A stretch of 64,000 nt of DNA from Methylocystis hirsuta (GTDB lineage: Bacteria; Pseudomonadota; Alphaproteobacteria; Rhizobiales; Beijerinckiaceae), in assembly GCF_003722355.1 (NCBI RefSeq), contig NZ_QWDD01000001.1, forward strand, positions 2,108,001-2,172,000, in the 5' to 3' direction. The position numbers and the translations under genes are program-made. How positions within the stretch are numbered: the stretch's first letter is position 1; the number at the start of each line of letters is the position of its first letter. Shown here piece after piece: positions 12,787 to 29,647 of this stretch. A model generated the notes under the pieces. It ran no database searches and had not been told where the DNA came from. It worked only from the letters and a program-made list of their open reading frames with translations.

Positions 12787-12788
12787 GG

Positions 12789-14018
12789 CTAAGCTTGGTC
12801 CTCGGCAGGCGCGCTCCAGCCGATCGGCAGGCGCGGGCGACGTTTCCGAAATTGCCCGCGCATCACGAGCGCGAAGGCGATGGCGTCGAGCCCCGCGAGG
12901 GTCAGCCACCACAGCTGCTCGGCCGCGGGACCGAACAGGCAAATGGCGAATCCCGCGCCGAGGCCGCCGAGAAGAAAGGGCGCAAGCGCCGGACGCGATT
13001 GGCCGACGAACAGGCTGGTGCGGGCGGCGACGAGCGCCGCCGCGGCCGCGCCGAGCACGCCGAGGTCGAACCAGATCTTGAAGATCAGGCTGCGCGGCGT
13101 CGCCGGCGTCAGATAGCCGCCGAGCACGCCCCAGGTGGCCGCGCCAAAGCCGTGTCCGATCAATGTGCGCCAGCCGTCCGCGTCGATCATCTGACCCCAG
13201 AAGGCGAGATGTCTGAAGAAGCCGGGCGGACGCTCGGGCCAGATCAGATGCGCCGCGTAGGCGGTCAGCGGCGCGAGCAGCACGATCGCCGTCATGAGCG
13301 CCGCAAATATGATGGACATCATTCGAGCGCGGCCGAAGGCGGCGGCGAAAACAGCCGCTCCGACGGCCAGCGCCGGGACGCCGTTCGGTGCGCCGGAAAG
13401 ATAACAGGCGAGCGCCGTCGCCACCGCGAGGGCGGCCGCCGCATACCACCGGCCGCGGACGGCGAGGGCGCCCATGGCCGGCCAGACAAGCAGGGCCAGT
13501 CCAAGTCCGGCGCGGCCAAGCGGTCCGACGTCGAGAATGTCGTCGAGCGTATATTGCGGCTTCAACAGCAAAGTGACGGCGGCAAGCGCGAGCGTCGCCG
13601 CGGCGACGCCGATCGGCAACAGGTTGAGATTCGAGGTTTTGGTGCGCAGCGGCAGAAATCCGGTGGCGAGCGCAACCAGGGCGAGCGTCGCCGTAATTTT
13701 GGCGAAGCGTTCCGCCGGTCCCTCGAACGGCGTCCAGAGCAGCGAAAGCGCCGTCCAGGCGGCGAGCAACAGCGCGGCGAGAAACGGCGGCGAGCGCAGG
13801 ATCGAGCGCAGGGAGCGCCCGGACCCTTCCGCCGGCGTCAACGTCGCGGCGGCGAGCAGCAGCGCCGCCCCGATCGGCAGCAGCACATAAACCGTCTGAC
13901 GCGCCAGAATCGGCGCGATGAGCGAGATCACGAACAGCAAAAACACGCCGATCCGCAGCAGAAGGCGAGAAGCCTCCTCTGCGGGTTCGTCGGCATTGCG
14001 GCGCGAAAGGACAGACAT
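12789..14018 (-). CDS. O-antigen ligase/polymerase-like membrane protein
   Basis: The 409-residue protein has about ten to twelve membrane segments. A large loop near residues 270-310 contains GHGFGAATWGVLGG, the recognisable motif of the O-antigen ligase (Wzy_C/WaaL) superfamily. Members join polysaccharide to lipid A core or polymerise repeat units in the inner membrane. No glycan cluster surrounds it, so the substrate is open. The ATG at 14018 (MSVLSRRN) avoids an N-terminal extension without family character. Confidence 0.7.
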   Translation of the reverse strand: MSVLSRRNADEPAEEASRLLLRIGVFLLFVISLIAPILARQTVYVLLPIGAALLLAAATLTPAEGSGRSLRSILRSPPFLAALLLAAWTALSLLWTPFEGPAERFAKITATLALVALATGFLPLRTKTSNLNLLPIGVAAATLALAAVTLLLKPQYTLDDILDVGPLGRAGLGLALLVWPAMGALAVRGRWYAAAALAVATALACYLSGAPNGVPALAVGAAVFAAAFGRARMMSIIFAALMTAIVLLAPLTAYAAHLIWPERPPGFFRHLAFWGQMIDADGWRTLIGHGFGAATWGVLGGYLTPATPRSLIFKIWFDLGVLGAAAAALVAARTSLFVGQSRPALAPFLLGGLGAGFAICLFGPAAEQLWWLTLAGLDAIAFALVMRGQFRKRRPRLPIGWSAPAEDQA

Positions 14019-14148
14019 GGCGAAGGTGAGCTTGAGGAGGGGATCTTTGATAGAGATTAGAACGAAATCGCCGGCGAGTAGCCTGCCGCAACGCAGTAAA
14101 TCTGGGAAAGACCCCGATTTTTCGGCGACTGTGGCGCTTTTGCCTGTT

Positions 14149-15330
14149 TCAGGGCGTTTGGCGCCACTCTTGGCGGACCGCCGCGTCGGGTTCGGCCGCC
14201 AGTCGATGGGGACGCAGCTCCGCGGCTCGCGTCGGCGCCAGTCTGCCGAGCGCCCAGACGGCGGCGCCGCGAACAATGGCGGCGGCGTCTTCGATCAGCC
14301 GCTCGGCCTCGGCGGCAAGCTCGGGCCGGGCCGAATTGCCGATGGCGATCAGAACATTGCGCAAGAAGCGGTCCCGTCCGACGCGTTTGATTGGGGAACC
14401 CGAAAAAAGCGCGCGGAACGCCGCGTCGTCGAGGCGCGCCAGTTCCGCAAGCGGCGGGGAGCCGAATTCGGGGCGCGCGGCGAGCTTCGCCTCGCGTCCG
14501 GCGCTCGCGTATTTGTTCCAGGGGCAGACCGCGAGACAGTCGTCACAGCCATAGATGCGATTGCCAATCTTGGCGCGAAATTCGAGGGGTATAGGGCCCT
14601 TGTGCTCGATCGTCAGATAGGAAATGCAGCGCCGCGCATCGAGGCGGTAAGGCGCTGGGAAGGCCGCCGTGGGACAAACCTCAAGACATTTGCTGCACGA
14701 GCCGCAATGATCGCGCTCTAGCGGATCGGGTTCGAGGCGAAGAGTCGTGAAGATTGCGCCCAGAAAAAGCCACGAGCCGAAATCGCGCGACACGAGATTC
14801 GTGTGTTTGCCTTGCCAGCCGACGCCGGCCGTCTGCGCGAGCGGCTTTTCCATGACGGGCGCGGTGTCGACGAAGACCTTGGCGTCGCCGCCGCCGGCGC
14901 GGCTGAGGATGAATCCGGCGAGCTGTTTCAACCGGCCCTTGAGGACGTCGTGATAGTCGCGGTTGCGCGCATAGACGGAGATCGTCGCGCAGTCCGGTTT
15001 CGTCAGCGAAGCGAGCGGATCTCCGTCCGGCCCATAGTTCAGGCCGAGCATGACGAGACTTGCCGCCTCGGGCCAGAGCGCGCGCGGCGCGGCCCGCCGC
15101 TCGGCCGTCTCGCGCATCCAGGCCATGTCGCCGTGCGCGCCGTCCCGCAGCCATTCGCGCAACCGATCGCCCTGCTCCGGCGCGACATCCGCCCGCGCGA
15201 AGCGGCAGACGTCAAAGCCAAGCTCGAACGCACGGGCGCGAATGTCCTCCTCCAGCGCCGGAGCCGCAGGCCGTCGAACATCATAACCTGCCGGCGAAGC
15301 CATCGATGACTTCGGGACAAGCGCCTGCAT
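14149..15330 (-). CDS. queG: Epoxyqueuosine reductase
   Basis: The 393-residue cobalamin and iron-sulfur enzyme performs the last step of queuosine synthesis in tRNA. Two 4Fe-4S motifs are visible: CGSCSKCLEVCP near residue 207, and CDDCLAVCP near 268 followed by WNKYA. A HEAT-like tail (IEDAAAIVRGAAVWALGR) completes the family architecture. The start may be 15330 or the ATG at 15303. It begins one or two bases after the histidine kinase stop on the same strand. Confidence 0.92.
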   Translation of the reverse strand: MQALVPKSSMASPAGYDVRRPAAPALEEDIRARAFELGFDVCRFARADVAPEQGDRLREWLRDGAHGDMAWMRETAERRAAPRALWPEAASLVMLGLNYGPDGDPLASLTKPDCATISVYARNRDYHDVLKGRLKQLAGFILSRAGGGDAKVFVDTAPVMEKPLAQTAGVGWQGKHTNLVSRDFGSWLFLGAIFTTLRLEPDPLERDHCGSCSKCLEVCPTAAFPAPYRLDARRCISYLTIEHKGPIPLEFRAKIGNRIYGCDDCLAVCPWNKYASAGREAKLAARPEFGSPPLAELARLDDAAFRALFSGSPIKRVGRDRFLRNVLIAIGNSARPELAAEAERLIEDAAAIVRGAAVWALGRLAPTRAAELRPHRLAAEPDAAVRQEWRQTP

Positions 15331-15331
15331 G

Positions 15332-16537
15332 TCAGCAGGGCGCTCGTAGAGGGATCGAGACGATGAACTCGGTCCCTGGATCGTGCTTTTTCATTTCGAT
15401 CGTCGCACTGAGTTGACGCGTAAATGACGCAACGATCCGCATGCCGAGCCCTTTTCGATTGCGAGGGTCGACGTCATCGGGCATTCCAGCGCCTTCGTCG
15501 CGCACGGAAACGATGAAATTCTCGCTGCCCTGGCGCGCGACCTTCACCGAAATGATTCCCGATTGGCTTTCATAGGCGTATTTCGCCGCATTGGCGATGA
15601 ACTCGTTGACGATCAGCGCGGTCGAAACCGCCCGGTCGGTTGCGATGACGATTCCTTCATCGATCTCGGTGCGCATGTCGCATTGCGCGACGCTTTCATC
15701 CAAATCATGACACAGCGCTTCGATGTATTTGCCAACGTCCATGCACTCGACGTCGGAGCCGCGGGACAGCTGATCATGCGCCTTTGCGATCGCATCGACG
15801 CGGTGAGAGGCTTCGTTGAGAAGTTCGGACACCTGTTCGTCGCCGGCGTCGTTGGCTTGCAGGCGGAGCATGCTGCCGACGATGGAAAGGCTGTTCTTCA
15901 CGCGATGATTCATTTCTTTGAGCAGCGCTTCGTTGCGCGCGAGCGCCGCTCTAAGTTTGCGCTCTTCCCGCTCGCGTTCGATCGCCATGCCAAGAAGATT
16001 CGCCGCGCCCTGCAGAAAAGCGATGTCCTGCTCAACGAACTCGGTCGGCGAGCGGCTGTCGACTTCGAGGATGCCATAAGGTTTTCCGTCACCCTGCAGG
16101 ATCACGTTCATTGCCCGGCGAACACCGTGCTGACGTAGCAATTCGGGAGTTCTGAACCGCGTCTCCTTTTCAAGGTGATTGGAGATGACCGGTTGGCCGC
16201 TGCGTAATGCGTATCCAGCAGGCGAGTCGAGATCCGCGCCGACTTTCGCGACGCCCACAACGCCGCGACTCCAGCCGACGCCGGCGCGCACCAGAAACTG
16301 GTTCTCGGACGGAAGCAGCTCCAGCACCTTGCAGAATTCCGCATCCAATCCTTGCGCCGTGAGTCGTACTGTGTCCGTCAGAAGCTGATCGAGCGAAGCG
16401 CCTTGGAGGGCGGAAACGCCGAGCTCCGCCAATATCTCCTGCTGCCGAATGCGCTGCTGCAGTCCGCGCGACGGATCGCCGGCTTTGGCGGGTTTCGACT
16501 CAACCTTTTCGCTCTCGCGCTCGTTGGGTGCGCTCAT
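15332..16537 (-). CDS. GAF-domain HisKA_2 sensor histidine kinase
   Basis: The 401-residue soluble kinase has a GAF domain (about residues 40-185, with GVVGVAKVG and VILQGDGKPYGILEVDS) and a HisKA_2 dimerisation domain. The phosphorylated His sits in MNHRVKNSLSIVGSML. A C-terminal HATPase has VNEFIANAAKYAYE (N box), VRDEGAGMPDD and GLGMRIV. No response regulator is encoded nearby, so it is an orphan. Kinases of this class often signal to PhyR/EcfG in Rhizobiales, which would fit the stress promoters seen here, but this is inference. It is just upstream of queG. Confidence 0.85.
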   Translation of the reverse strand: MSAPNERESEKVESKPAKAGDPSRGLQQRIRQQEILAELGVSALQGASLDQLLTDTVRLTAQGLDAEFCKVLELLPSENQFLVRAGVGWSRGVVGVAKVGADLDSPAGYALRSGQPVISNHLEKETRFRTPELLRQHGVRRAMNVILQGDGKPYGILEVDSRSPTEFVEQDIAFLQGAANLLGMAIEREREERKLRAALARNEALLKEMNHRVKNSLSIVGSMLRLQANDAGDEQVSELLNEASHRVDAIAKAHDQLSRGSDVECMDVGKYIEALCHDLDESVAQCDMRTEIDEGIVIATDRAVSTALIVNEFIANAAKYAYESQSGIISVKVARQGSENFIVSVRDEGAGMPDDVDPRNRKGLGMRIVASFTRQLSATIEMKKHDPGTEFIVSIPLRAPC

Positions 16538-16662
16538 ACGATGGTCCCGTATTGCGGCTACTTGCCTCACTCCATCCGATAGGTGTCAAGCGCGGCCGCA
16601 GTGCGGGTTGTTAAAGCGGCGCTTGAGTCTCGCATCTGGCGCCGCCGACCACTCCGCGACGC

Positions 16663-17346
16663 TTAGAAATCCAGTTCCGCATAATATCGGCCCGGCGTAA
16701 GTCCCGGGGCCCGATAAGACAGCAGCGGACGAAACGCGGGGCGTGACTTGATTCGTTGATACCAGTGCTTCGCCGCCTCATCCTCGTCCCACGGCGCATC
16801 GCCAAGATAATCGGCGCAGGAGATATGCGCGGCCGCTGCGAAATCGGCATACGTCAAACGATCGCCCGCGAGCCAGTTGCGCGCATTGGTGAGATAGCCA
16901 ATGTAGCGCATATGGTGCCGGATGTTGGCGCGCGCCACACGCACCACGTCCATATCGGGCGCGCCGCCCGGAGGCGCAAAGCGCTTGTAGACCTTCTCCG
17001 TGATCAGCCAGTTGGTGACCTCGTCGAAAAACTTGACGTTGAACCAGTCGACAAGTCGACGCGTTTCGATGCGCGCCGCCATTTCCTGCGGCAGGAGCCG
17101 TTGCGCGCCACGTTCGGCGCCATAGGTCTCGTCGATATATTCGGCGATGAGATTGGCGCCGGGCGCGACAAGGCCGTTGTCGTCAACGAAAACCGGCGTG
17201 CGTCCGGCAGCGTCAAGCGCGAGAAATTCTGGGCGGCGGTCGCTCACGCGCTCCTCGATGAGCGTTGCGTCTATTCCATATTCGGAGAGGACGAGCCGGA
17301 CAAATCGCGAATGGGGGCAGAGCGGGTGATGATAAAGCGTGGGCAT
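16663..17346 (-). CDS. Glutathione S-transferase family protein
   Basis: The 227-residue protein has an N-terminal thioredoxin-like domain (YHHPLCPHSRFVRLVLSEYG, with CPHS in the active-site position). GRTPVFVDDNG and the ANLIAEYIDE segment bind the glutathione gamma-glutamyl part in relatives. The C-terminal helical domain has the N-capping WLAGDRLTYADFAAAAH motif. The role is probably detoxification or thiol chemistry; the substrate is unknown. It is divergent from the SIMPL-domain gene. Confidence 0.88.
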   Translation of the reverse strand: MPTLYHHPLCPHSRFVRLVLSEYGIDATLIEERVSDRRPEFLALDAAGRTPVFVDDNGLVAPGANLIAEYIDETYGAERGAQRLLPQEMAARIETRRLVDWFNVKFFDEVTNWLITEKVYKRFAPPGGAPDMDVVRVARANIRHHMRYIGYLTNARNWLAGDRLTYADFAAAAHISCADYLGDAPWDEDEAAKHWYQRIKSRPAFRPLLSYRAPGLTPGRYYAELDF

Positions 17347-17479
17347 GATGCCTTTTCGAGCGGACGCGAGGCGACGGTCGGGCGCCGCCTTCTGTATGCT
17401 GGTTCGGGTTAACGCCGCTAGCCGGCGGTTTTACGGCTTTGATGAGCTTTTTAGCGCGCAGCTTTTGCTAGGATATGCC

Positions 17480-18202
17480 ATGATTCGTTTGCTCTTCGCA
17501 CTTTCGCTCGGCCTGATGCTGTTCGCGGCCGCGGGGAACGCCGATACGCTGAAGGACGGCGTTCCAAATCTCTCCGTCATTGGCGAGGCTTACGAGGATG
17601 TTGCGCCCGACGTGGCGATCTTGCGGTTCGGCGTCGTCACCGAACGGCCGCTGGCCGCCGACGCCGCGGCGGAAAATGCGCGCGCGGTCGAAGCTATTCT
17701 CTCCGAACTCAAAAAATTTGGCGTTCCCGACGCTGAAGTGCAGACGCAAGGCGTAACGCTCGCGCCCGTCACCGTCGAAGAGCGAGACCCCAAGACGGGC
17801 AAACCCAAGACATCACAAAAGTTTTTCCGCGCACGAAACGATCTGAGCGTGCGCGTGACGCAGATCGAAAAGGCCGGCGAGATCGCCGGCCGTCTGATCG
17901 ACAAGGGCGTTAACAGCTTCGAAGGCATCGATTTCGAAATCGCGCATCCCAAGCAACGGCTTGACGCATTGCGGCGCGAAGCGGTCAAGGATGCGGAGCG
18001 GCAGGCGAAGATCTATGCGGAGGCGGCTGGATTGCGGCTGTCCCGCGTGATCGAAATTCGTCCGCTCGAGGAGATCGACGCGCGTCCGCGCGCCTATGCG
18101 GCGAAGGCCGCCGGGGCTCCCGGAGCCGCCGAGATTCCTTTGCGTCCCGGGCTGCAGCGTCTCTCGGCGCGCGTGAACATGGTCTGGGGACTCTCGCGCT
18201 AG
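17480..18202 (+). CDS. Exported SIMPL (DUF541) domain protein
   Basis: The 240-residue protein begins with a signal peptide (MIRLLFALSLGLMLFAAAGNAD). It has the SIMPL fold typical of periplasmic oxidative-stress proteins: LSVIGEAYEDVAPDVAILRFGV, then the N-x-x-A helices and GVNSFEGIDFEIAHP. The family forms channel- or shell-like oligomers of unclear function. The ATG at 17480 is chosen because it begins the signal peptide; the open frame extends upstream to 17339 without support. Confidence 0.85.
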   Translation: MIRLLFALSLGLMLFAAAGNADTLKDGVPNLSVIGEAYEDVAPDVAILRFGVVTERPLAADAAAENARAVEAILSELKKFGVPDAEVQTQGVTLAPVTVEERDPKTGKPKTSQKFFRARNDLSVRVTQIEKAGEIAGRLIDKGVNSFEGIDFEIAHPKQRLDALRREAVKDAERQAKIYAEAAGLRLSRVIEIRPLEEIDARPRAYAAKAAGAPGAAEIPLRPGLQRLSARVNMVWGLSR

Positions 18203-18337
18203 TTCCCTCTGCCTGTTGAAGCGGCGAAAGCCCGCGCTGCTGCTCGCAATTTGCTCGCCTGAAGCCGTATCGCGCTGCACAATTTCACGCTAAGCTCGCG
18301 TTCGCGACTGGTGGGGCCGCAATGTGAGGGGTCGCGG

Positions 18338-18748
18338 ATGGCGCATGTCATCTTTTACGAAAAGCCGGGCTGCGCCGGCAATGCGCGGCAGAAGGCGCTG
18401 CTCGTCGCCTCTGGACATGAGGTCGAAGTTCGGGACCTTCTGACCGAATCCTGGAGCCCGTCGAGCCTGCGTCCCTATTTCGGCTCCAAGCCGTTGCCGG
18501 AATGGTTTAACGCCGCCTCGCCGCGCATCAAATCCGGCGAGATCGACCTGGAGAAAGTCACGCCGCAGGAAGCATTGGTGATGATGATGCTCGATCCGGT
18601 GCTCATCCGTCGCCCTCTGATGCGCATCGGCGATCATTGCGAGGCGGGTTTCGACTCGGCCGCGGTCGACGCGTGGATCGGACTGAAGCGGACCGATGAA
18701 ACTGTTAGCGACGTGTGCGTGCGCTCCATCGCCAACGACGCTTTCTAG
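18338..18748 (+). CDS. ArsC/Spx-like nitrogenase-associated (NifO-type) protein
   Basis: The 136-residue thioredoxin-fold protein starts MAHVIFYEKPGCAGNARQK, with the single Cys of the ArsC/Spx superfamily. It continues with a LRPYFG segment, an MMLDPVLIRRPL motif (the cis-Pro and binding region) and IGDHCEAGFD. This pattern matches proteins annotated as nitrogenase-associated. No nif gene is present in the window, so a redox or arsenate-reductase-like role cannot be excluded. GAGGGGTCG precedes the ATG at 18338. Confidence 0.75.
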   Translation: MAHVIFYEKPGCAGNARQKALLVASGHEVEVRDLLTESWSPSSLRPYFGSKPLPEWFNAASPRIKSGEIDLEKVTPQEALVMMMLDPVLIRRPLMRIGDHCEAGFDSAAVDAWIGLKRTDETVSDVCVRSIANDAF

Positions 18749-18919
18749 CCTCCTCGCTAGCCTCCTCGGCAGCGCTTCTCCGCCATAAGTGGGGCGCTGC
18801 GAAACCCTTCCCGACGAACCATAATATGTAAATGGCGCCGGTTCGGCCCTCCGGCAGCCATCTGACTGGGCGTGGCCGGCGGTGAGTGAGTGGGAAGCTG
18901 CGGGGGAGGAGCCCTAAGT

Positions 18920-21900
18920 ATGCAGCCTTCGGCGGAAGGAAAGGACTATTGGGCGATCGGAGCCGATGCGGCGCTCGAGCGCCTGGGCGTGACGCGTTCG
19001 GGCTTGAGCAAAGCTGAGGCGGAACGGCGGCTCGCCGTCCATGGCCGCAATCGCCTTCCGGCCGGCAGGCGGCGCAGCGCGCTCATGCGCTTCGCGCTGC
19101 AGTTCCACAACGTATTGATTTATGTGCTGCTCGCCGCCGCCTTCGTCACGGCGCTCATGCAACACTGGATCGACACCGCGGTCATCGTCGCGGTCGTCGT
19201 CATCAACGCGGTCATCGGATTTATCCAAGAAGGCAAGGCCGAAGAGGCCATGGAAGCCGTCCGCAACATGCTCTCTTCGCAAGCCACCGTCGTGCGCGAC
19301 GGGCAGCGCGCTGTCATTGACGCGAGCGACGTCGCGCCGGGAGACATCGTCTACGTCCAATCGGGCGACAGGATACCCGCGGACATCCGTCTCATCCGGG
19401 TCAAATCTCTGAAAGTGCAGGAGTCGGCGCTCACCGGCGAGTCGCTGCCGGTCGACAAGGACCCGGCGCCGGTCATGGCGGATGTGCCGCTCGGAGATCG
19501 GGCGCCGATGGCCTATTCGGGAACCGTCGTGACCTACGGTCAGGGGACGGGCGTCGTTGTCGCCACGGGGGCCGCGACCGAGATCGGGCGCATCAACGCC
19601 ATGCTGTCGGAGGTGGAGACGCTCTCCACGCCCTTATTGCAGCGCATGGACGAATTCGCGCGCTGGCTCACGGTCGTCATTCTGGTCGTGTGCGCCGCCG
19701 TTTTCGCTTTTGGCGCGCTGGTATGGGGATTCGACGCCGGCGAGATGTTCATGGCGGCGGTCGGGCTCGCGGTTTCCGCGATCCCCGAAGGATTGCCGGC
19801 GATCATCACCATTACGCTGGCGATCGGCGTGGAGCGCATGGCCCGGCGTAAGGCGATCATTCGCCAGCTCCCGGCAGTCGAGACGCTCGGCGCGGTGACG
19901 ACGATCTGTTCCGACAAGACGGGCACGCTAACGCTCAATGAATTGATCGTGCGCTCGATCGTCACCTCCGGCGGCGTCTATGACACGACCGGGTCGGGAT
20001 ATGATCCGCACGGCGGCTTCCTGCGCAATGGCAAGGACGTCGTGGTGCGCGAGGACATTCACCTGACCGCCGCATTGCGGCCCCTCGCGCTCTGCAATGA
20101 CGCCGTGTTGCGCGAGAAGGACGGCGTCTGGAGCGTCGAGGGCGACCCCACGGAAGGCGCGTTGCTCGCCGCCGCGTTTAAGGGCGGCGTCAACCTGGAA
20201 GAGCTGGCGCTGGAGCTGCCGCGCACGGATGAGATTCCTTTTGAGTCGCAGCATCGCTTCATGGCGACGCTGCATCACGACCATGACGGCGCTGGCTACA
20301 TTTTCGTCAAGGGCGCGCCTGAGCGGCTGCTCGAAATGTGCTTCTGGGAGCAGGGCGTGCGAGGAGAGCAGCGTCCGCTCGACTGCGCCTGCTGGCTCGA
20401 CCGCATCATTGAGATGGCGACGCGCGGGCAGCGGGTTCTGGCGGTCGCCTCCAAGAAAGCCGAAGAGGGTCAGCAGCAACTCGCGTTCGGCGACGTTGAA
20501 AGCGGGCTCGTCTTTGTCGGTCTCATTGGCCTGATTGATCCGCCACGCCCAGAGGCCGTCGAGGCGATCCGCGCATGCGCGACCGCCGGCATGTCCGTCA
20601 AAATGATCACGGGCGACCACGCCGCGACGGCGATCGCCATCGCCCGCGAACTCGGACTCAACCGTCCGGATTCAGTGCTCACCGGACGCGACCTCGACGC
20701 GATCGGCGACGAGGATCTCGGCGAGGCGGCGAGCGCCACGACGGTGTTCGCGCGCACCAGTCCCGAACATAAGCTGCGACTCGTTCAGGCGTTGCAGAAG
20801 CGCGGCGAAGTCGTCGCGATGACCGGCGACGGCGTCAACGACGCGCCGGCCTTAAAGCGCGCCGACATCGGCATAGCGATGGGCGTCAAAGGCACCGAGG
20901 CGGCGAAAGAGGCCGCGGAGATGGTGCTTGCCGACGACAATTTCGCATCGATCGTGCATGCGGTGCATGAGGGCCGCGTCGTCTATGAAAATCTGAAGAA
21001 GACCATCCTCTACATCTTGCCGACCAATGGCGGCGAGGGCCTCACGGTGATCGCGGCGATCGCCATGGGCGAGACCCTGCCGGTGACGCCGGTGCAGATC
21101 CTGTGGATCAATCTGATCACCGCCGTCACGCTCGGCCTCGCGCTCGCGTTCGAGCCGCCGACCAAGGGCGTCATGCTGCGCCCGCCGCGTCCGTCGGGCG
21201 AACCGATCCTCTCCCGCTACTTCATCTGGCGCATCGTCTTCGTCTCTTTCCTGATGCTGATCGCGACCTTCGGTCTCTACGAATTGGAGAAGGCGCGGGG
21301 CATGGGGCTCGACAGCGCGCGAACGGTCGCGGTCAATTCGCTGGTCGCCTGCGAGGTCGCATATCTCTTCAACGCGCGTTTCCTTTCCGAGTCGTCGCTC
21401 TCGTTGAAGGGTCTGTTCGGCAGCCGCGCGGTGCTGATTTCCGTCGCCATCGTCGTCGTCCTGCAAGCGATGTTCACTTACGCGCCTTTTATGCAGGCGC
21501 TGTTCAACACCACGCCGCTCGACCCGGAGATATGGTGGCATATCGCGGGCGCGAGCGTCGTGCTGTTTCTGCTCGTCGAGGTCGAGAAGGCCATTTTCCG
21601 TTCGCCCGCGGCGGCTCCTGCGCCCCGTGGCGCTCCTGCGGCGCCGGCGACCGGCGCGGCCGCTGTCGTCGCGCCTGGCGATTGGGTTCGACCTGTCGTC
21701 GCCGGTCTATTGGGGCTGCTCATCATTGTCGTGAGCGGCGCGTTCTATCTTCACACGCGCGTCAGTCTCACGCGCGAAGAGGCGTCAGCTGGCCGAACGA
21801 TCGACGTCAGCGGCGTGATCGCCGCGGTCGCGCAGACGCCGATCACGGCTCCTGCGGCGGGCGTCGTCGTGACGCTGACGTGCGACCTCGGCGCGAAAGT

Positions 21901-22579
21901 CGAGGCGGGCGAAACCTGTGCGACGCTCGCGCCGTCTTCCTCCGACGAAGCTTTGGCGCGCGAGAAAAGCGCTCTGGCGGCGGCGGAGTCGCAATTGACG
22001 CAGCGCGAGCGCACGCAGGCGAGGGCGCAGGCGAATCTCGAAACACTGGAGGCGGGTTCGGCAAGTCGCGCGGCGCGCCGCAAGGCGCTGGCCAATGCGC
22101 GACGCGCGCTGGCGCGGGCGCAGGCGCAAGTCGCACGCGCCGAAGCGGAAGTCGCTCTGCGCCGCGAGGCGGCGACGAAGATGGAGGCGGATCGAGCCGG
22201 CGCCGCGATTGTCGCGCCGGTCGCAGGGTTCGTCTTAGAGCGAACGGCTGCTGTCGGCGCGCGCGTTGAAGCGGGCGCGCCGCTGTTCATGATCGGCGAC
22301 GCCAAGACCGTTCGCCTTCATGGGAAGGTGGAGGGGGAGGGCGCCCTCGCGATCGCGCCGGGCGCCAAGGCGCTGCTGACGAGCGACTCCGTCCCTGGCC
22401 GGACGCTTGCAGGAAAGGTGATCGAGGTGCGCCGTCCCGCCGCGCCGCAAGCGGGCGCGAGGGTCGACGTGGTGGTTGAGTTCGAGAATTCCGACCTCGC
22501 ACTTCGACCGGGAATGGCGGCTTCGGCGCGGATCGACCTCGAGGAGCGCGCCGCGGCGTTAGGCGAAGAAGAAATTTGA
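18920..22579 (+). CDS. P2-type cation-transporting ATPase fused to an HlyD-like periplasmic adaptor
   Basis: This 1219-residue protein is about 300 residues longer than usual P2-type pumps. Residues 1-900 form a complete ATPase: actuator TGES at 172-175, M4 motif IPEGLPA, phosphorylated Asp332 in DKTGTLT, and the GDGVNDAP hinge with its first Asp at 637. In M6 the sequence NLITAVTLGLALAF lacks the Asp of calcium pumps. After a Pro/Ala-rich linker an extra helix (about 922-948) leads to an HlyD-like module. This has a half-lipoyl segment TAPAAGVVVTLTC, a coiled-coil hairpin at about 1011-1095, the second half-lipoyl IVAPVAGFVLERTAAVGARV and a beta-barrel ending LRPGMAASARIDL. The expected topology puts that module in the periplasm. 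GGGGGAGGAG precedes the ATG. The ion is unknown. Confidence 0.85.
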   Translation: MQPSAEGKDYWAIGADAALERLGVTRSGLSKAEAERRLAVHGRNRLPAGRRRSALMRFALQFHNVLIYVLLAAAFVTALMQHWIDTAVIVAVVVINAVIGFIQEGKAEEAMEAVRNMLSSQATVVRDGQRAVIDASDVAPGDIVYVQSGDRIPADIRLIRVKSLKVQESALTGESLPVDKDPAPVMADVPLGDRAPMAYSGTVVTYGQGTGVVVATGAATEIGRINAMLSEVETLSTPLLQRMDEFARWLTVVILVVCAAVFAFGALVWGFDAGEMFMAAVGLAVSAIPEGLPAIITITLAIGVERMARRKAIIRQLPAVETLGAVTTICSDKTGTLTLNELIVRSIVTSGGVYDTTGSGYDPHGGFLRNGKDVVVREDIHLTAALRPLALCNDAVLREKDGVWSVEGDPTEGALLAAAFKGGVNLEELALELPRTDEIPFESQHRFMATLHHDHDGAGYIFVKGAPERLLEMCFWEQGVRGEQRPLDCACWLDRIIEMATRGQRVLAVASKKAEEGQQQLAFGDVESGLVFVGLIGLIDPPRPEAVEAIRACATAGMSVKMITGDHAATAIAIARELGLNRPDSVLTGRDLDAIGDEDLGEAASATTVFARTSPEHKLRLVQALQKRGEVVAMTGDGVNDAPALKRADIGIAMGVKGTEAAKEAAEMVLADDNFASIVHAVHEGRVVYENLKKTILYILPTNGGEGLTVIAAIAMGETLPVTPVQILWINLITAVTLGLALAFEPPTKGVMLRPPRPSGEPILSRYFIWRIVFVSFLMLIATFGLYELEKARGMGLDSARTVAVNSLVACEVAYLFNARFLSESSLSLKGLFGSRAVLISVAIVVVLQAMFTYAPFMQALFNTTPLDPEIWWHIAGASVVLFLLVEVEKAIFRSPAAAPAPRGAPAAPATGAAAVVAPGDWVRPVVAGLLGLLIIVVSGAFYLHTRVSLTREEASAGRTIDVSGVIAAVAQTPITAPAAGVVVTLTCDLGAKVEAGETCATLAPSSSDEALAREKSALAAAESQLTQRERTQARAQANLETLEAGSASRAARRKALANARRALARAQAQVARAEAEVALRREAATKMEADRAGAAIVAPVAGFVLERTAAVGARVEAGAPLFMIGDAKTVRLHGKVEGEGALAIAPGAKALLTSDSVPGRTLAGKVIEVRRPAAPQAGARVDVVVEFENSDLALRPGMAASARIDLEERAAALGEEEI

Positions 22580-22728
22580 GTCGCGCCGCCGGTCAGGTTG
22601 ACGCTGGGAGCGTCGCCGCCGGTGCGGAGCCAGCCGCCATGGCCGCCGCCCCAGTGGCGACCGCGTCCCAACCGCCGGCCACGGCGCAAGCCGCCGCGGA
22701 CGTCCCATCCCACCGTTCGATGAATCCG

Positions 22729-22813
22729 TGGTGCCCCTGGCCGGAGTCGAACCAGCACTCCTTGCGGAACTCGATTTTGAGTCGAGCGCGTCTACCAATT
22801 CCGCCACAGGGGC
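22729..22813 (-). tRNA. tRNA-Leu (anticodon CAA)
   Basis: The 85-base gene folds fully. The acceptor arms GCCCCTG and CAGGGGC are perfect and are followed by an encoded ACCA end. The anticodon loop CTCAAAA gives anticodon CAA (reads UUG), and the T arm contains GTTCGACTC. A moderate variable region (GTTCCGCAAGGAGT) fits the class II shape of tRNA-Leu. It lies between the ATPase fusion gene and the YqaA gene, on the opposite strand to both. Confidence 0.95.
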
Positions 22814-22944
22814 CCGGCCGGCGAGAAGCCGGCGAAGCGGCGCGGATATTAGCGGCGGCGCGGCGCCCGTCAACCCGCGAAACTTCTTTCTTCAACGCTT
22901 ACGTGCTATGCGCGGGCAGCGCGCCGCGCCAACCCCGGAAACAG

Positions 22945-23523
22945 ATGAAAAAGCTCTACGACTGGACCATGTCGCTTGCCGCGAGCCGGCATGCGCCCCT
23001 GGCGCTTGGCGCGATCGCTTTTGCCGAGAGCTCCTTCTTCCCGGTGCCGCCCGACGTGATCCTCGTGCCGATGACGCTCGCCGAGCCGAAGAAGGCCTGG
23101 TATTTCGCAGGAATCTGCACGATCGCTTCCGTCGCGGGCGGGGCGCTCGGCTACGCCTTCGGCGCGCTGTTCTACGATACGATCGGCCAGTGGCTGATCA
23201 ATCTCTACGGCTATGGAGAGAAGATGGAGGCTCTGCGCGCCTTCTACGCGCAGTGGGGGGCGATCTTCATCCTGGTCAAGGGCTTCACGCCCATTCCCTT
23301 TAAGCTCGTGACCATCGTCTCGGGGCTTCTCGCCTATAATTTCCCGCTGTTCATCGTATTGTCGGTGGTGACGCGGGGGGCGCGGTTCTTCGTGCTGGCG
23401 GCGGCGATCAATCGCTTTGGCGATCCGATCCGCGCGAAGCTCGAAAGCCACTTCGGACTTTTCATTGCGTCGCTCGCGGTCATCGTCGTCGCCGGCTTCG
23501 CGCTTGCGGCGAAGATGTTTTGA
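22945..23523 (+). CDS. YqaA/DedA-family membrane protein
   Basis: The 192-residue inner-membrane protein has the VTT (SNARE-associated) domain. SSFFPVPPDVILVP with acidic Glu upstream (FAES) marks the N-terminal re-entrant hairpin. The second one is KGFTPIPFKLVTIVSGLLAYNF. DedA relatives are lipid transporters or scramblases that support the proton motive force; the role of YqaA types is less clear. The ATG at 22945 begins a typical MKKLYDW start, while the longer open frame runs through the antisense of the tRNA gene. dsbB follows immediately. Confidence 0.85.
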   Translation: MKKLYDWTMSLAASRHAPLALGAIAFAESSFFPVPPDVILVPMTLAEPKKAWYFAGICTIASVAGGALGYAFGALFYDTIGQWLINLYGYGEKMEALRAFYAQWGAIFILVKGFTPIPFKLVTIVSGLLAYNFPLFIVLSVVTRGARFFVLAAAINRFGDPIRAKLESHFGLFIASLAVIVVAGFALAAKMF

Positions 23524-23540
23524 GCGTGCGAGTCTGTCGA

Positions 23541-24080
23541 ATGGAGTGGCGCAGCGTCGTTCATTGCGCCTTCGAGCCGCGCAACGCATCGCTCCTCATC
23601 CTCGCCGCCGCCGTTGCGGCGATCGGCGGGGCCTGGGCCTATGAGTCGCTCGGCTATCTGCCGTGCGAGCTCTGCTACAAGGAGCGCACGCCCTATTACG
23701 CGGCGTTCGCGCTCGCGCCGCTTGCCGCCTTCGCCGCGCAGACGGGGCGGAGGGGGATGGCCCTCGCGGCCTTCCTGCTGATGGCGCTGCTCTTCGCCGG
23801 CAACGCCATCCTTTCGATCTATCATTCGGGCGTCGAGTGGAAGATTTTCGCGGGGCCCAGCGACTGTTCGGGGCCGCTTTCGACCGCGCCGTCGGTCGCC
23901 GATTTCATGAAGCAACTTCAATCGGTGAAGGTCGTGCGCTGCGACGAGCCGAATCTATGGATTTTCGGCCTGACGCTGGCGAATTGGAACGTCGCGATTT
24001 CCGCGGCGCTGGCCGCGCTGGCGGGTTACGCTTACTGGTTTAACCGGCGCAAGTTCAACCCTGTCTCTCCTTCGCCATGA
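23541..24080 (+). CDS. dsbB: DsbB-type disulfide bond formation protein
   Basis: The 179-residue, four-helix membrane protein has the quinone-linked redox motif CELCYKER near residue 42 and a second periplasmic cysteine pair (DCSG and RCDEP). Together these match DsbB, which reoxidises DsbA in the periplasm. Start choice is uncertain: ATG at 23541 or TTG at 23520, which overlaps the YqaA stop. Its 3' end overlaps the convergent brnA by 26 bases. Confidence 0.85.
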   Translation: MEWRSVVHCAFEPRNASLLILAAAVAAIGGAWAYESLGYLPCELCYKERTPYYAAFALAPLAAFAAQTGRRGMALAAFLLMALLFAGNAILSIYHSGVEWKIFAGPSDCSGPLSTAPSVADFMKQLQSVKVVRCDEPNLWIFGLTLANWNVAISAALAALAGYAYWFNRRKFNPVSPSP

Positions 24081-24339
24081 CATGGCGTCGCAACACCTGG
24101 TTGATTTCTGTCTGATAGCCTCTTCCCTCTGCATGGCGCTTGAACCAGTCCAATACGTCCGCATCGATGCGAATACTCACCGGCTGTTTGACGGGCTTGT
24201 AGAACGCGCCGCGACGAGCGAAAGTCCAGTTTTCGGCGGGCGCTTCAGGAATATCCTGCGTATCGATCTTGTCGTCAGACAAGGCGACAAGCTTCTCAAG
24301 CTCGCAAAGCTCCTTGGGGCTAAACTCCTTCTTGCTCAT
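24055..24339 (-). CDS. brnA: BrnA-type antitoxin
   Basis: The 94-residue protein has a BrnA C-terminus: KQPVSIRIDADVLDWFKRHAEGRGYQ, then INQVLRRHV, a ribbon-helix-helix DNA-binding domain. The N-terminal segment (about residues 1-60) should bind the toxin. It starts inside the last codons of brnT with a 20-base overlap, the typical toxin-first order of brnTA. The pair is expected to repress its own promoter. Confidence 0.88.
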   Translation of the reverse strand: MSKKEFSPKELCELEKLVALSDDKIDTQDIPEAPAENWTFARRGAFYKPVKQPVSIRIDADVLDWFKRHAEGRGYQTEINQVLRRHVMAKERQG

Positions 24340-24628
24340 AGCGCCTTCTCTCATGAGGCGTCGCCTTTCGCGCGCCGATGATCCGCACGCGCTCGCCTTC
24401 GTTCGCGTGGGGGTAGCAATGCACAACGACTAAAAGCGCCACTCCGCCAACAACGCCGATCGCATGCCAACGTTCTTCGCCATCCTCGAAGCGGTCCGGG
24501 AGGTTGACATGCAGGGGATCGTCCCAAACCCGTCGTGCAATTTCAAATGAAACGCCATGCTTGGCGACGTTTCGCCGCGCCTTGTTGATATCCCAATTGT
24601 ATATACAATAATGTAAATAGGATAACAA
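24320..24628 (-). CDS. brnT: BrnT-type ribonuclease toxin
   Basis: The protein of up to 102 residues carries the BrnT core: NWDINKARRNVAKHGVSFEIARRVWDD, then EERWHAIGVVGG, VVVHCYP and IIGARKATPHERRRYE. These are RelE-fold mRNA-cleaving toxins. No ATG precedes the conserved region; the frame opens with a TTG at 24628, and the ten extra residues before NWD are unusual. The real start could be a non-standard codon nearer NWD, because a perfect palindrome lies across this N-terminal stretch. Confidence 0.85.
   Translation of the reverse strand: MLSYLHYCIYNWDINKARRNVAKHGVSFEIARRVWDDPLHVNLPDRFEDGEERWHAIGVVGGVALLVVVHCYPHANEGERVRIIGARKATPHERRRYEQEGV
24596..24609. promoter_or_regulatory. Palindrome at the brnT start, probable brnTA operator
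   Basis: ATTGTATATACAAT is a perfect 14-base palindrome in an otherwise GC-rich region. It lies within the first codons of the longest brnT reading frame. A BrnA ribbon-helix-helix dimer could bind it to shut off brnTA. Its position suggests either that brnT starts further downstream or that the operator is intragenic. Confidence 0.55.
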
Positions 24629-24640
24629 GCGCGACAGTAC

Positions 24641-25822
24641 TCACCCCGTCGCCATCCTGGCGCTCGCCCGGAGCTTTTCCGTCTCGCTCTTCAACTGCCC
24701 GCAGGCGGCGAGAATGTCGCGGCCGCGCGGGGTGCGCACCGGGCTCGCGTAGCCGGCGTTGAAGACGATGTCGGAGAAGCGCTCGATCGTCTCCCAATCC
24801 GAACATTCGTAAGGCGCGCCCGGCCAGGGATTGAAGGGGATGAGATTGATCTTGGCCGGCAGGCCTTTCAGGAGTCGCACCAGCTCCCTGGCGTCGGCGG
24901 GCGAGTCGTTCACGCCCTTCAGCATCACATATTCGAAGGTGATCCGCCTTGCGTTCGACGCGCCGGGATAGTCGCGGCAGGCCTGCAGCAGCTCTTTGAT
25001 CGGATATTTTTTGTTGAGCGGCACAAGATCGTTGCGCAGATCGTCGCGCACTGCGTGCAGCGAAATCGCCAGCGCCGGCCCGCATTCGGCGCCGAGACGC
25101 TCGATTTGCGGCACGACGCCGGAGGTCGAGACGGTGATGCGGCGCTTCGAGAGCGCCAGCCCGTCGCCGTCGGCCATGATCTCGATGGCCGCCATGACAT
25201 TGTCGAGATTGTAGAGCGGCTCGCCCATGCCCATGAAGACGATGTTGGAGACGGCGCGCACGCCTTCGCCCGACGGCACGAGCCCGTCGGTCGGCCGCTC
25301 GCGATCGGGAAAATCGCCGAGCCTTTGCCGGGCGACGAGCAATTGACCGACGATCTCAGCGGTCGTCAGATTGCGCACGAGCCGCTGCGTGCCCGTGTGG
25401 CAGAAGCTGCAATTTAAAGTGCAGCCGACCTGAGAGGAGACGCACAGCGTTCCGCGGTCGGTTTCCGGGATATAGACGCATTCGACTTCGGCGCCCTTGT
25501 CGAAGGCGTCGACCGGCCGCAGCCGCAGCAGCCATTTGCGCGTGCCGTCGACGGAAACCTGCTCCTCGACGATCTCTGGAAGGCGTAGCGCGAAGGCGTC
25601 CGCGAGCTGGGCCCGCATCGCCTTGGAGACATTCAGCATCTCGCCAAAGTCGCGCGCGCCGCGGAAGTAAACCCAGTGCCAGATCTGCGACACGCGCATG
25701 CGGATTTCGCGCTCGGGCAGGCCGAGCCCGCGCAGGGCGTTGCCGATCTCGGCGCGGGTCATCCCGGAGAGCGAAGGCTTGAGCGTCATCGTGGGCGCAG
25801 CGGAAAGATCGGATAGGCTCAT
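24641..25822 (-). CDS. rlmN: 23S rRNA/tRNA adenine C2-methyltransferase
   Basis: The 393-residue radical-SAM enzyme methylates A2503 of 23S rRNA and A37 of some tRNAs. The cluster motif is CTLNCSFC (Cys134, 138, 141). It is followed by HTGTQ, the [11 protein letters not shown] segment and a C-terminal [11 protein letters not shown], whose Cys is the methyl-carrying residue with its partner upstream. Length is normal for the family. It ends 13 bases before the brnT frame, which lies on the same strand. Confidence 0.95.
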
Positions 25823-25982
25823 GAAGTCCTCGGAACAGCGCCTCTTATATCATGTCTTCGCGCAATTTTTTGAGAGGCCGCCGCGACGTCGTCATTAACG
25901 GGCGTCGTCCTTCCTTGATGTCGCCCTTCAAAAACGATAAACGCTGCGCGCTCACGCCCAAGAGGGCCGACGGAGCGACTCC

Positions 25983-27545
25983 TTGCATAGCGCCGCGCCA
26001 GACGCATCCGATCCTTCGCTCAGGGCGACCCGCCGGGAGTGGATCGGGCTCGCCGTCCTCGCTCTGCCCTGCCTGGTCTATGCGATGGACTTCACCGTGC
26101 TCAATCTCGCCATTCCGGCGCTGACGGCGGAGCTGCGGCCGAGCGCCTCGCAACTGCTGTGGATCATCGACATCTACGGCTTCATGGTGTCCGGCTTCCT
26201 GATGATCATGGGCGGGCTCGGCGATCGCATCGGCCGGCGCAAGGTGCTGCTGCTGGGCGCCGCGGCGTTCGGCGCCGTTTCGATCCTGGCGGCTTTCTCG
26301 AAATCGGCGCAGATGCTGATTTTTGCGCGCGCCGCGCTCGGCGTCGCGGGAGCGACCCTCGCGCCGTCGACGCTGTCGCTGCTCGCCAACATGTTCCGCG
26401 ATCCGTCGGAACGCACCTTTGCGGTCAGCATGTGGATCTCGAGCTTCTCCGCCGGCGCCATCATCGGGCCGCTCGTCGGCGGCGCGCTCATCCAATCTTT
26501 CGGCTGGGGCTCGGTCTTTCTCGCGGGCGTCCCGGTGATGGTGCTTCTGCTTGTGCTCGGGCCGATGCTTCTGCCGGAATATCGCGATCCCGACGCGGGC
26601 CGGCTGGATCTCGCCAGCGCGCTTCTGTCGCTCGCGGCGGTGCTGTCCTTCATTTACGGATTGAAGCGCGCCGCCGAGGCGGGGTTCGGCGCCGACGCGA
26701 TCGGAGCGACGGCGGCAGGCGTCGGGCTCGCGCTTCTGTTCCTGCGCCGACAGTCGCGGCTCGAAGACCCTTTGATCGATCTCGCGCTGTTTCGCTCGCG
26801 GTCGCTGAACACGGCGCTCTGCATCAATATGCTTGGCGTCTTCTTCATGTTCGGGTCGTTCATTCTGCTCGCACAGTACTTTCAGCTCGTTGCGGGTTTG
26901 ACGCCGCTCGATGCAGGGCTGTGGTCGACGCCGTCGGCGATCGTCTTCATGATCGGCTCCTTCGCCACGCCCGCGCTGGCGCGCCGCATCACGCCCGTCA
27001 ATCTTCTCGCCGGCGGACTGATCGTCGCTGCGGCAGGATTTGTCGGCCTCGCGCTGGCCGACGGATTCTACGGGGTGCTTTTATCTTCTCTGCTACTCGT
27101 CGGCTTCACGCCGGTGATCGCGCTGACGACGGAAATCATCGTCACATCGGCGCCGCCCGAGCGCGCGGGCGCAGCGTCAGCCTTGTCGGAAACGGCGATT
27201 GAACTTGGCGGCGCGCTTGGCATCGCCGCGCTCGGCAGTCTCGGCACGCTGATCTACCGCGCGAAAATGGCCGGCGTCATCGCGGGGCTTCCGCCGGACG
27301 TCGCTCGGGCGGCCGGCGCGACGCTCGGCGGCGCGGCGGATGCGGTCAAATTCTTGCCCCCGGAGCAGGCCGAGCGGACGCTCTCCGCCGCGCGCGACGC
27401 CTTCTGCGCCGGTTTTCAGGCGACCGCCTGGTTGGGCGCCTTGGGGCTTGTCGGCGCCGCGTTCGCGACGAAGATTGCGCTCAAACACGCGCGTCCTCCG
27501 TCGGCGGAAGGCTCAGGCGAAAAGCCGAGTTCGGCCGCCGCGTAA
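25983..27545 (+). CDS. MFS drug exporter (DHA2, 14-helix, SmvA-like)
   Basis: The 520-residue transporter has 14 predicted membrane helices. It shows the family motif A region GGLGDRIGRRKVLL after helix 2, and LDxTIVNLALP-like MDFTVLNLAIPAL in helix 1. The 14-helix layout with a SmvA/LfrA-like sequence points to proton-driven efflux of cationic drugs or dyes; the substrate is unknown. A TTG at 25983 is used as start, with GGAGCGAC just upstream. No regulator gene is adjacent. Confidence 0.85.
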   Translation: MHSAAPDASDPSLRATRREWIGLAVLALPCLVYAMDFTVLNLAIPALTAELRPSASQLLWIIDIYGFMVSGFLMIMGGLGDRIGRRKVLLLGAAAFGAVSILAAFSKSAQMLIFARAALGVAGATLAPSTLSLLANMFRDPSERTFAVSMWISSFSAGAIIGPLVGGALIQSFGWGSVFLAGVPVMVLLLVLGPMLLPEYRDPDAGRLDLASALLSLAAVLSFIYGLKRAAEAGFGADAIGATAAGVGLALLFLRRQSRLEDPLIDLALFRSRSLNTALCINMLGVFFMFGSFILLAQYFQLVAGLTPLDAGLWSTPSAIVFMIGSFATPALARRITPVNLLAGGLIVAAAGFVGLALADGFYGVLLSSLLLVGFTPVIALTTEIIVTSAPPERAGAASALSETAIELGGALGIAALGSLGTLIYRAKMAGVIAGLPPDVARAAGATLGGAADAVKFLPPEQAERTLSAARDAFCAGFQATAWLGALGLVGAAFATKIALKHARPPSAEGSGEKPSSAAA

Positions 27546-27633
27546 CGCAAGCCGCCCGTCATGCGCTTGTCACGGCGCGCGTCGAGCTTTAGCCTTCAGC
27601 GCATTCTGTTGTTTTTTGCGCTCGGGGGATTTC

Positions 27634-28746
27634 ATGAGACTCGCCTCATACAACGTTGAGAATCTTTTCGACCGCGCACGCGCCATGAATCTCAAGAGCC
27701 TTTCGCAAGGCAAACCTATTCTCGAACGTTTCGCGGAACTGAATGCGTTGCTGGCGCAGCCTTCGTACAGCGCCGCCGACAAGACGCGCATGGCGAAACT
27801 TGTCATTGAACTTGATTTGGAAAAATCCGACGTCGGCGATTTTGTCATTCTGCGGCGTAATAGGGGCGGACTGATCAAACGCCCCAAGTCGGGCGGCGTT
27901 CAAATTGTCGCGAGCGGGCGCGCCGATTGGGTCGGCTCGCTGGAGTTGCGCGACGAGCCCGTCGACGAACAGGCGATGAGGAATACGGCGCGGGTGATGC
28001 GAGATGTCGAGGCGGACGTTCTCGGCGTCGTCGAAGTCGAGAGCCGGCCGGTGCTGCGGGATTTCAACGCGGACGTCGTCGCTGCGTTCGGCGGCGAGGC
28101 ATTCCGGCACGCGATGGTGATCGACGGCAACGATACGCGCGGCATCGACGTCGGCCTCTTGACCCGACAGGGATTTCCCATTGGCGCGCTGCGCAGCCAC
28201 GTCGACGAGATGTTGACCGAGCGTGATCCGATCTTCTCGCGCGACTGCGCCGAGTTCGAAGTGACGGCGCCGTCCGGCGCGCGCATGCTGCTGATGCTCA
28301 ATCACTTCAAGAGCAAGGGTTTCGGCTCGCAGCAATCATCCAACGCCAAACGTCGCGCGCAGGCGAAACGCGTCGCTGAAATCTACGACGAACGCGTTGC
28401 CATGGGGATCAAGAACATCGTCGTGATGGGCGACTTCAACGACACGCCGGACAGCGAACCTTTGAGTCCTCTCATCGAAGGGACGGATCTGAAGGACATC
28501 TTTTTGCATCCGAAATTTGACGACGGCGGTTTCCCGGGCACCTACGGCAGTTGCGCCGCGGACAACAAGATCGACTTCATTCTGCTGTCGCCGGCGCTGT
28601 TCGACAAGGTCACGAGCGGCGGCGTGTTTCGCAAAGGCATGTGGCCCGGCGCGCGGGCCAAACGCTGGGAGGCCTATCCGGAAGTCGCCCGCAAGGAGGA
28701 CGCAGCGTCGGATCACGCGGCGATTTGGGTGGACATCGACCTTTAG
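27634..28746 (+). CDS. Endonuclease/exonuclease/phosphatase-family protein (370 aa)
   Basis: The protein has the EEP fold signatures: N-terminal RLASYNVENLF, VEVESRPVL with the catalytic Glu, GDFNDTPDSEPL and a terminal SDHAAIW. These supply the metal- and phosphate-binding residues of DNase I-like enzymes. No signal peptide is visible. Substrate (nucleic acid or phosphoester) is unknown. The ATG at 27634 follows CGGGGGAT and is the natural start of the fold. A second member of this superfamily is encoded at 62084-63049. Confidence 0.82.
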   Translation: MRLASYNVENLFDRARAMNLKSLSQGKPILERFAELNALLAQPSYSAADKTRMAKLVIELDLEKSDVGDFVILRRNRGGLIKRPKSGGVQIVASGRADWVGSLELRDEPVDEQAMRNTARVMRDVEADVLGVVEVESRPVLRDFNADVVAAFGGEAFRHAMVIDGNDTRGIDVGLLTRQGFPIGALRSHVDEMLTERDPIFSRDCAEFEVTAPSGARMLLMLNHFKSKGFGSQQSSNAKRRAQAKRVAEIYDERVAMGIKNIVVMGDFNDTPDSEPLSPLIEGTDLKDIFLHPKFDDGGFPGTYGSCAADNKIDFILLSPALFDKVTSGGVFRKGMWPGARAKRWEAYPEVARKEDAASDHAAIWVDIDL

Positions 28747-28819: not shown

Positions 28820-28825
28820 CCTAGC

Positions 28826-29641: not shown

Positions 29642-29647
29642 TCCAGC

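Follow-up and report, generated by a model that had tools for sequence, protein, structure and literature searches.

What is a periplasmic adaptor doing at the end of a cation pump? Adaptors of the HlyD/MacA fold are partners of ABC, MFS and RND exporters, and in this study we analyzed a gene in which such an adaptor forms the C-terminal part of a P-type ATPase. The gene is located in a 64,000-nucleotide stretch of Methylocystis hirsuta DNA (assembly GCF_003722355.1, contig NZ_QWDD01000001.1, positions 2,108,001 to 2,172,000), referred to here as the window. Sequence comparison shows that this adaptor belongs to a mobile module, derived from a MacA family marked by a C-x11-C cysteine pair, which in Methylocystis and its relatives is found at the C-terminus of P2, P1B and P3-like ATPases, the F1 alpha subunit, CyoD, TerC and other proteins. 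Its best explanation appears to be a periplasmic tether or clustering domain rather than an export conduit, and we assign the tether reading a probability of about 0.4.

In the order of the chain, an intact P2-type ATPase is followed by a disordered linker, an eleventh helix, and then by half-lipoyl segment, hairpin, half-lipoyl segment and barrel. The features, in window coordinates, are as follows.

18920..22579, plus strand: whole fusion gene, 1219 amino acids, from the ATG at 18920 to the TGA at 22579
18920..21598, plus strand: P2-type ATPase, residues 1-893, with ten membrane helices and A, P and N domains (Pfam, structure model, SERCA/SPCA folds)
19433..19444, plus strand: TGES actuator motif, residues 172-175 (sequence motif)
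19781..19798, plus strand: IPEGLP of M4, part of the ion site, residues 288-293 (motif)
19913..19927, plus strand: DKTGT phosphorylation motif, residues 332-336 (motif)
20825..20848, plus strand: GDGVNDAP, residues 636-643 (motif)
21104..21127, plus strand: WINLITAV of M6, residues 729-736, with Ala735 at the place of the calcium-pump Asp, SERCA D800 (alignment to SPCA1)
21599..21685, plus strand: Pro/Ala-rich linker, residues 894-922, predicted cytoplasmic (model, predicted local distance difference test score, pLDDT, <50)
21686..21769, plus strand: eleventh membrane helix, residues 923-950, in the position of the MacA N-terminal anchor (model, hydropathy)
21797..21928, plus strand: first half-lipoyl segment, about residues 960-1003 (model)
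21881..21883, plus strand: Cys988, first Cys of the conserved C-x11-C pair (sequence comparison)
21917..21919, plus strand: Cys1000, second Cys of the pair (sequence comparison)
21941..22198, plus strand: alpha-helical hairpin, residues 1008-1045 and 1050-1093, its tip Thr-Gly-Arg where MacA relatives have Arg-Leu-Ser (motif alignment, model)
22202..22300, plus strand: second half-lipoyl segment, about residues 1095-1127 (model)
22307..22537, plus strand: beta-barrel, about residues 1130-1206, with no membrane-proximal domain after it (Pfam, model, module profile)

A preliminary description made from the letters alone had proposed a P2 ATPase and an HlyD-type adaptor in one chain, and this is borne out by Pfam domains, motifs and the structure model. 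The TGES, DKTGT and GDGVNDAP motifs that it named are all present together with P-type Pfam domains, and the added helix, two half-lipoyl segments, hairpin and barrel are supported by the model and by fold matches, the folds and the topology of the chain being predicted. The best structural match of the adaptor model was MacA of MacAB-TolC, and the lipoyl, hairpin and barrel parts of HlyD/MacA/RND_mfp periplasmic adaptors were all found by Pfam, model and structural matches. Against the RND_mfp family TIGR01730 (cut-off 94.9), the C-terminal part alone scored 96.8 and the full chain 92.5.

The window adaptor and MacA have the membrane helix, both half-lipoyl segments, the hairpin and the barrel in common, and the nearest standalone family of the window module has MacB neighbours. 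The window adaptor differs from MacA in its position behind a P-type ATPase and in lacking the membrane-proximal domain, the RLS motif and an adjacent MacB, whereas Escherichia coli MacA lacks the Cys pair of the window module (alignment). The chain ends about 13 residues past the barrel; the chains at loci L007, L055, L056, L171, L189, L190, L197 and L199 are 68-81 residues longer, which we take as that domain. RLS, described in part of PMC3391258 as the TolC-docking motif and defined as RxxxLxxxxxxS, was not found at the tip of the window adaptor, where Thr-Gly-Arg stands in its place, and no MacB-type gene was found beside the window fusion among neighbours named by eye.

A trivial origin of the fusion has to be considered at this point, namely that a sequencing or assembly error near 21600 joined two adjacent genes. 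Intact orthologues were found in 9 of 19 genus genomes (the window's own and 18 searched), the eight others showing 84-94% identity with matches reaching at least residue 1205. In a tenth genome (G017) the ATPase frame stops after match residue 957 and the adaptor is in another frame, so that 8 of the 9 orthologues found outside the window's genome keep an unbroken frame. Seven flanks were read, with gene names by eye, around six intact orthologues (L059-L064) and the G017 gene (L045), and the gene order QueG, kinase, GST, SIMPL, ArsC-like, fusion is kept in them as far as the stretches reach. This order was not found around L057, a 74% relative that is a second copy in G018, nor around the unfused outgroup L046-L048. 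In Methylocystis rosea GW6, a 73.5% relative over 99% of the chain is one annotated gene of plasmid pGW6_1, whose sequence is complete, and bears only the name 'HAD-IC family P-type ATPase'. The 9/19 intact orthologues, the 6/6 conserved neighbourhoods and the pGW6_1 gene rule out such a merger, which we regard as next to impossible; the recurrence of the fusion across Methylocystis genomes and in one further genus, a check put forward in the preliminary description, indicates a real class. In the G017 gene itself (L045:8143-11740), the frames of ATPase and adaptor are separate and overlap, by a natural break or a draft error.

Selection on the two halves was compared through the ratio of nonsynonymous to synonymous substitution rates (dN/dS) in the 28 pairs formed by eight sequences, namely the window gene, six of its orthologues and L057. 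The median was 0.113 in the ATPase (residues 1-892), 0.302 over residues 893-932 and 0.395 in the adaptor (958-1219), where the maximum over the 28 pairs was 0.685 and single short segments reached 1.07. Purifying selection is present on the adaptor, weaker than on the pump.

The extent of the module was investigated by protein and genome searches. With residues 890-1219 as query, three P1B-hemerythrin-adaptor fusions (P0023-P0025) were among the 27 proteins listed, and with the adaptor of P0023 as query 5535 relatives were obtained, of which the best 120 were examined. C-x11-C was present in the first half-lipoyl segment of 115 of these 120; of the remaining five, four begin only after the first Cys position, and in P0061 the two Cys, right at the beginning of the protein, are closer together. 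The matches listed comprise standalone adaptors, about 400-440 residues long, and fusions to hemerythrin/P1B, CyoD, TerC, DUF202, AHSA1 and P-type tails (TerC, DUF202, AHSA1 and hemerythrin hosts identified by Pfam). A module profile, built from a 69-row set whose rows were chosen by C-x11-C, identified 57 fused frames in the sequence stretches retrieved, among which 52 were P-type ATPases, 3 F1 alpha and 2 CyoD. The P-type frames comprised 49 with the phosphorylation motif and 3 cut or shortened ones (P-type by Pfam); the 49 were classed by motif as 32 P2, 8 P1B and 9 neither, the last including P2 chains that lack a plain PEGLP, such as L054, which Pfam assigns to P2. The Cys pair was present in 57/57 fused frames and in 0/19 other adaptor frames matched by the same profile, one place being counted twice among the 19 (L083, L182).

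P-type ATPases with the module were found in 28 of 39 genus genomes (27 as frames, G012 from the orthologue match); the 11 in which none was found include several incomplete genomes. Outside the genus, among 99 evenly drawn family genomes, fusions were found in one other genus, in both its sampled genomes; at most 24 candidates were scored per genome, so misses are possible. The P1B-hemerythrin-adaptor fusions (P0023, L082, L167, L168, L170) and the F1-alpha-adaptor fusions (L169, L176, L180) have this type of C-terminal module on other hosts, a single chain at L169 combining HlyD_D23 with three ATP-synthase domains (Pfam), and the CyoD fusion of L084 follows immediately after a COX1 gene. F1 ATP synthase alpha with a membrane helix and the C-terminal module was seen at L169:8233-10746 (Pfam), L176:1233-3827 and L180:794-3415 (both by motif and profile). 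At L054:6620-11503 an AI-2E transporter, a P2 ATPase and an adaptor form one chain of about 1600 residues (Pfam), and L198:9669-14468 and L210:1287-6086, also of about 1600 residues, resemble it in length and module only. A second P2-adaptor fusion of the window's own genome (L007:889-4692, contig C3), one of the longer chains mentioned above, adjoins an RND pump and an outer-membrane efflux gene (Pfam) and CusAB/CopA-like genes (by eye).

The source of the module was sought among standalone adaptors with the pair. These MacA relatives (e.g. P0121, P0082) are like the window module in sequence and Cys pair; they differ in keeping RLS and the membrane-proximal domain and form a separate group in the module tree. 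An ABC gene was adjacent in 5/5 of their loci (L075, L077, L078, L079, L174) and was MacB by Pfam in 3/3 tested. In the module tree of 69 rows, 18 standalone (two identical) and 51 fused rows were split by a branch with support of 100, and host labels changed 14 times where 9 is the minimum possible. The ATPase tree, with 49 sequences, showed 7 changes between fused and unfused, at least 6 of them forced by well-supported branches, which indicates repeated gain or loss of the fusion; L166, the fusion from the second genus, grouped with the unfused L047 of another family. Both trees were built by rapid searches, contain long branches and are rooted at the midpoint. As a possible precursor, an unfused ATPase with an adjacent adaptor was looked for in L046, L047 and L048, the three loci of the same taxonomic order with an unfused ATPase, and no adaptor of this kind was found there (blastp 1e-4). 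The window's own genome contained no standalone member at E <= 1e-15 (2 matches, both fused), and co-assembly of the fusion with a standalone C-x11-C MacA of the same cell was ruled out on this ground.

The side of the membrane on which the module lies was judged by hydropathy only, in 17 sequences. The C-termini of P-type ATPases, F1 alpha and AHSA1 are cytoplasmic, and in fusions to these hosts (3/3 for F1 alpha) a hydrophobic segment stands between host and module, in the place of MacA's own anchor. The last helix of CyoD ends outside already, and in CyoD fusions (3/3) the module comes directly after the host with no extra helix. A similar segment was visible with TerC, where it is below the hydropathy threshold, with DUF202 and with unassigned hosts. 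A helix on hosts that end in the cytoplasm and none on CyoD point to the periplasm, where the module is predicted to lie wherever host topology can be judged. A C-terminal part that is cytoplasmic and without the lipoyl/hairpin fold, the case named beforehand as fatal to the description, is answered by this placement and by the predicted MacA-like fold.

The ATPase half was predicted to have a SERCA/SPCA-like fold with ten membrane helices (model and Foldseek; the actuator domain was poorly modelled), and identity to SPCA1 was 34% in the structural alignment. Fold and domains are common to the window pump and the Ca2+-ATPases SPCA1, SERCA and LMCA1; the differences are the M6 Ala for Asp, the extra helix, the adaptor, and equivalog scores below the cut-offs of the NCBIfam models for PMR1-type calcium pumps (TIGR01522, 659.1 against 798.3) and SERCA-type pumps (TIGR01116, 625.9 against 703.4). 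The ion-site segments are VSAIPEGLP in M4, PTNGGE in M5, WINLITAV in M6 and ACEVAYLFN in M8. By the SERCA calcium-ligand list and numbering that we assume here, with no SERCA or CtpF sequence aligned, the ligand positions VSAIPEG in M4, N703 and E706 in M5, N731 and T734 in M6 and E812 in M8 are present, and the exceptions are A305, replaced by Ser, and D800, replaced by Ala. The same two exceptions are reported, in the portion of PMC7525011 consulted, for CtpF of Mycobacterium tuberculosis, a P2A Ca2+-ATPase that otherwise conserves the SERCA Ca2+ ligands; the likeness is by description and not by sequence alignment, and that portion makes no mention of an adaptor tail on CtpF. The absence of the calcium-pump Asp from M6, stated in the preliminary description, is confirmed, Ala735 being aligned to its place through SPCA1. 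The ion had been called not obvious for this reason, which holds less well: the missing Asp is no bar to calcium, because CtpF, a reported Ca2+-ATPase, is also without D800. We read the window pump as a P2A ATPase for cation export whose ion site resembles that of CtpF, with Ca2+ as the most likely ion.

Of 80 nearest-ATPase loci, kept from at least 587 in named genomes, 71 carry Ala where SERCA has D800. The chain ends shortly after M10 in 70 of the 80, the others being five intact fusions, the broken G017 frame and four with a C-terminal extension of another kind, which suggests that the window pump comes from a common, usually unfused family of Proteobacteria. A differing C-terminal extension with several hydrophobic helices was seen by eye at L102, L115, L122 and L137 (in records labelled Methyloversatilis, Methylolobus, Methylotetracoccus and Methylocaldum). 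Residues in M5 and M6 differ between the window pump and its sister fusions L051 and L052, and ion-site motifs vary among the host pumps that carry the module, which is therefore apparently not ion-specific.

How such a module might act was considered on this basis. The pump would work as an ordinary P2A ATPase, with phosphorylation at Asp332 and release of the ion to the periplasm, and the module, on its flexible cytoplasmic linker and its own membrane helix, would make adaptor-type periplasmic contacts with itself, with other tailed pumps or with the envelope. Those contacts would cluster the pump or hold it at one place in the cell envelope, and no TolC conduit would be formed; ion, oligomerisation and tether function are what we infer for this fusion, and the sequences themselves show its architecture, the relationship of the module to MacA, the return of the module on different hosts and purifying selection. 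The lipoyl core, hairpin and Cys pair are kept throughout the fused modules. RLS is complete in 18/18 chosen standalone rows (17 distinct) against 8/51 fused ones, with 0/5 in the window's clade; in a less selected set it was found in 43/67 rows with the first Cys <=125 residues from the start, some of them fragments of fusions, and in 10/95 with a later Cys. The loss of RLS, the losses of the barrel, the disordered linker and the hosts without cargo favour clustering or tethering over a conduit. The window's own genome also encodes a P-type ATPase with an extra helix and a C-terminal OmpA domain (L008:3189-6461, contig C3; Pfam E 1.4e-18), with what we take to be a signature of the peptidoglycan-binding type, and by analogy this pump supports anchoring. 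A second P-type ATPase with an extra helix and an OmpA-like domain, with residues of that type, was seen by eye at L076:7671-11096 (G006).

The preliminary description had suggested that an ion is delivered through the periplasm or to a channel in the outer membrane. In a trans-envelope efflux of this kind the adaptors of several pump chains would form a ring and dock on the channel so that the ion leaves the cell, and some of the evidence speaks for this and against tethering. The hairpin and barrel have MacA dimensions and remain under selection in the window clade, as a conduit needs, and the adaptor is predicted to be periplasmic. The stretches retrieved around other fusions contain RND pump genes in 5/9 loci (L007, L049, L050, L057, L167; no background rate is available), L007 has the outer-membrane efflux gene as well, and on pGW6_1 RND genes are found at a distance of about 7-15 kb from the relative of the window gene. 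In the part of PMC4446572 consulted, RLS is no absolute requirement, and adaptors of cytoplasm-loading transporters have membrane helices, no membrane-proximal domain and an extended hairpin; the window adaptor fits the first two features, whereas the hairpin extension was not seen. The route is further weakened by the erosion of RLS (Thr-Gly-Arg here, lost in 43/51 fused modules), the disappearance of the membrane-proximal domain, the absence of the barrel in L049, L050 and L053 (L049 without any HlyD match), the disordered linker, and the hosts F1 alpha, CyoD and AHSA1, which have no cargo. No channel, RND or MacB gene was recognised by eye among the frames at window 12000-30000, and service as partner of a neighbouring exporter was rejected for want of one recognised by eye beside the gene. 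We consider trans-envelope efflux rather unlikely.

Tethering is also challenged by the possibility that the adaptor is dispensable, since it evolves faster than the ATPase and its frame is broken at the adaptor start in G017, and by DUF202 and AHSA1, which are not known ion pumps. A tolerated passenger, a mobile segment at the 3' end of genes that brings no benefit, spreads through recombination and decays slowly, would account for that faster evolution and broken frame and for the serial loss of membrane-proximal domain, RLS and barrel; it is made improbable by the dN/dS values of the adaptor, short segments aside, by the intact frame in most orthologues, and by repeated fusion with the helix kept or omitted according to the host's end. 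A regulatory or redox/metal relay, in which the Cys pair would sense or bind metal or form a disulfide and so tune the pump or receive the ion, could explain the constancy of C-x11-C in the fused frames; the pair also occurs in standalone MacA relatives, is thus older than the fusions and may be a structural disulfide, and ion sites differ among hosts, so that this too seems unlikely.

Upstream of the window gene, the neighbours named by eye are QueG, kinase, GST, SIMPL and ArsC-like genes, and downstream are DedA, DsbB, RlmN and MFS genes. A tRNA-Leu (caa) lies immediately downstream of the fusion gene (window 22729-22813, minus strand), and two small minus-strand genes at window 24055-24628 look by eye like a candidate BrnT/BrnA toxin-antitoxin pair. 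Contig C4 of the same genome carries a P-type ATPase of 1237 residues with an N-terminal TPR domain (L010:7405-11115, Pfam) and another P-type ATPase whose coding sequence falls into two frames that overlap (L009:4937-8241). PMC10654040 considers it likely that further P-type families of prokaryotes will be characterised.

Both halves of the fusion belong to known families. No description of a P-type ATPase-adaptor fusion was found in the literature searched, subscription papers and preprints lying outside its coverage so that absence is not implied, and the combination and the spread of the module over ion pumps are likewise unreported there. An adaptor that is built into a P-type ATPase, recurs on unrelated ion pumps and even on F1 alpha, and is predicted to face the periplasm suggests that the adaptor fold has a use other than docking to TolC. 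It is possible, if on the doubtful side, that in Methylocystis and its kin the MacA-derived module is a common periplasmic handle that gathers cation pumps into shared assemblies or into one part of the membrane, a proposal that would cover P2, P1B and P3-like ATPases, F1 alpha, the oxidase subunit CyoD and TerC. The membrane system of these methanotrophs includes internal membranes, and the handle may hold pumps in one part of it; if so, it would be a new way to organise primary ion transport, not efflux, and would offer a testable handle on pump placement in methanotrophs with internal membranes.

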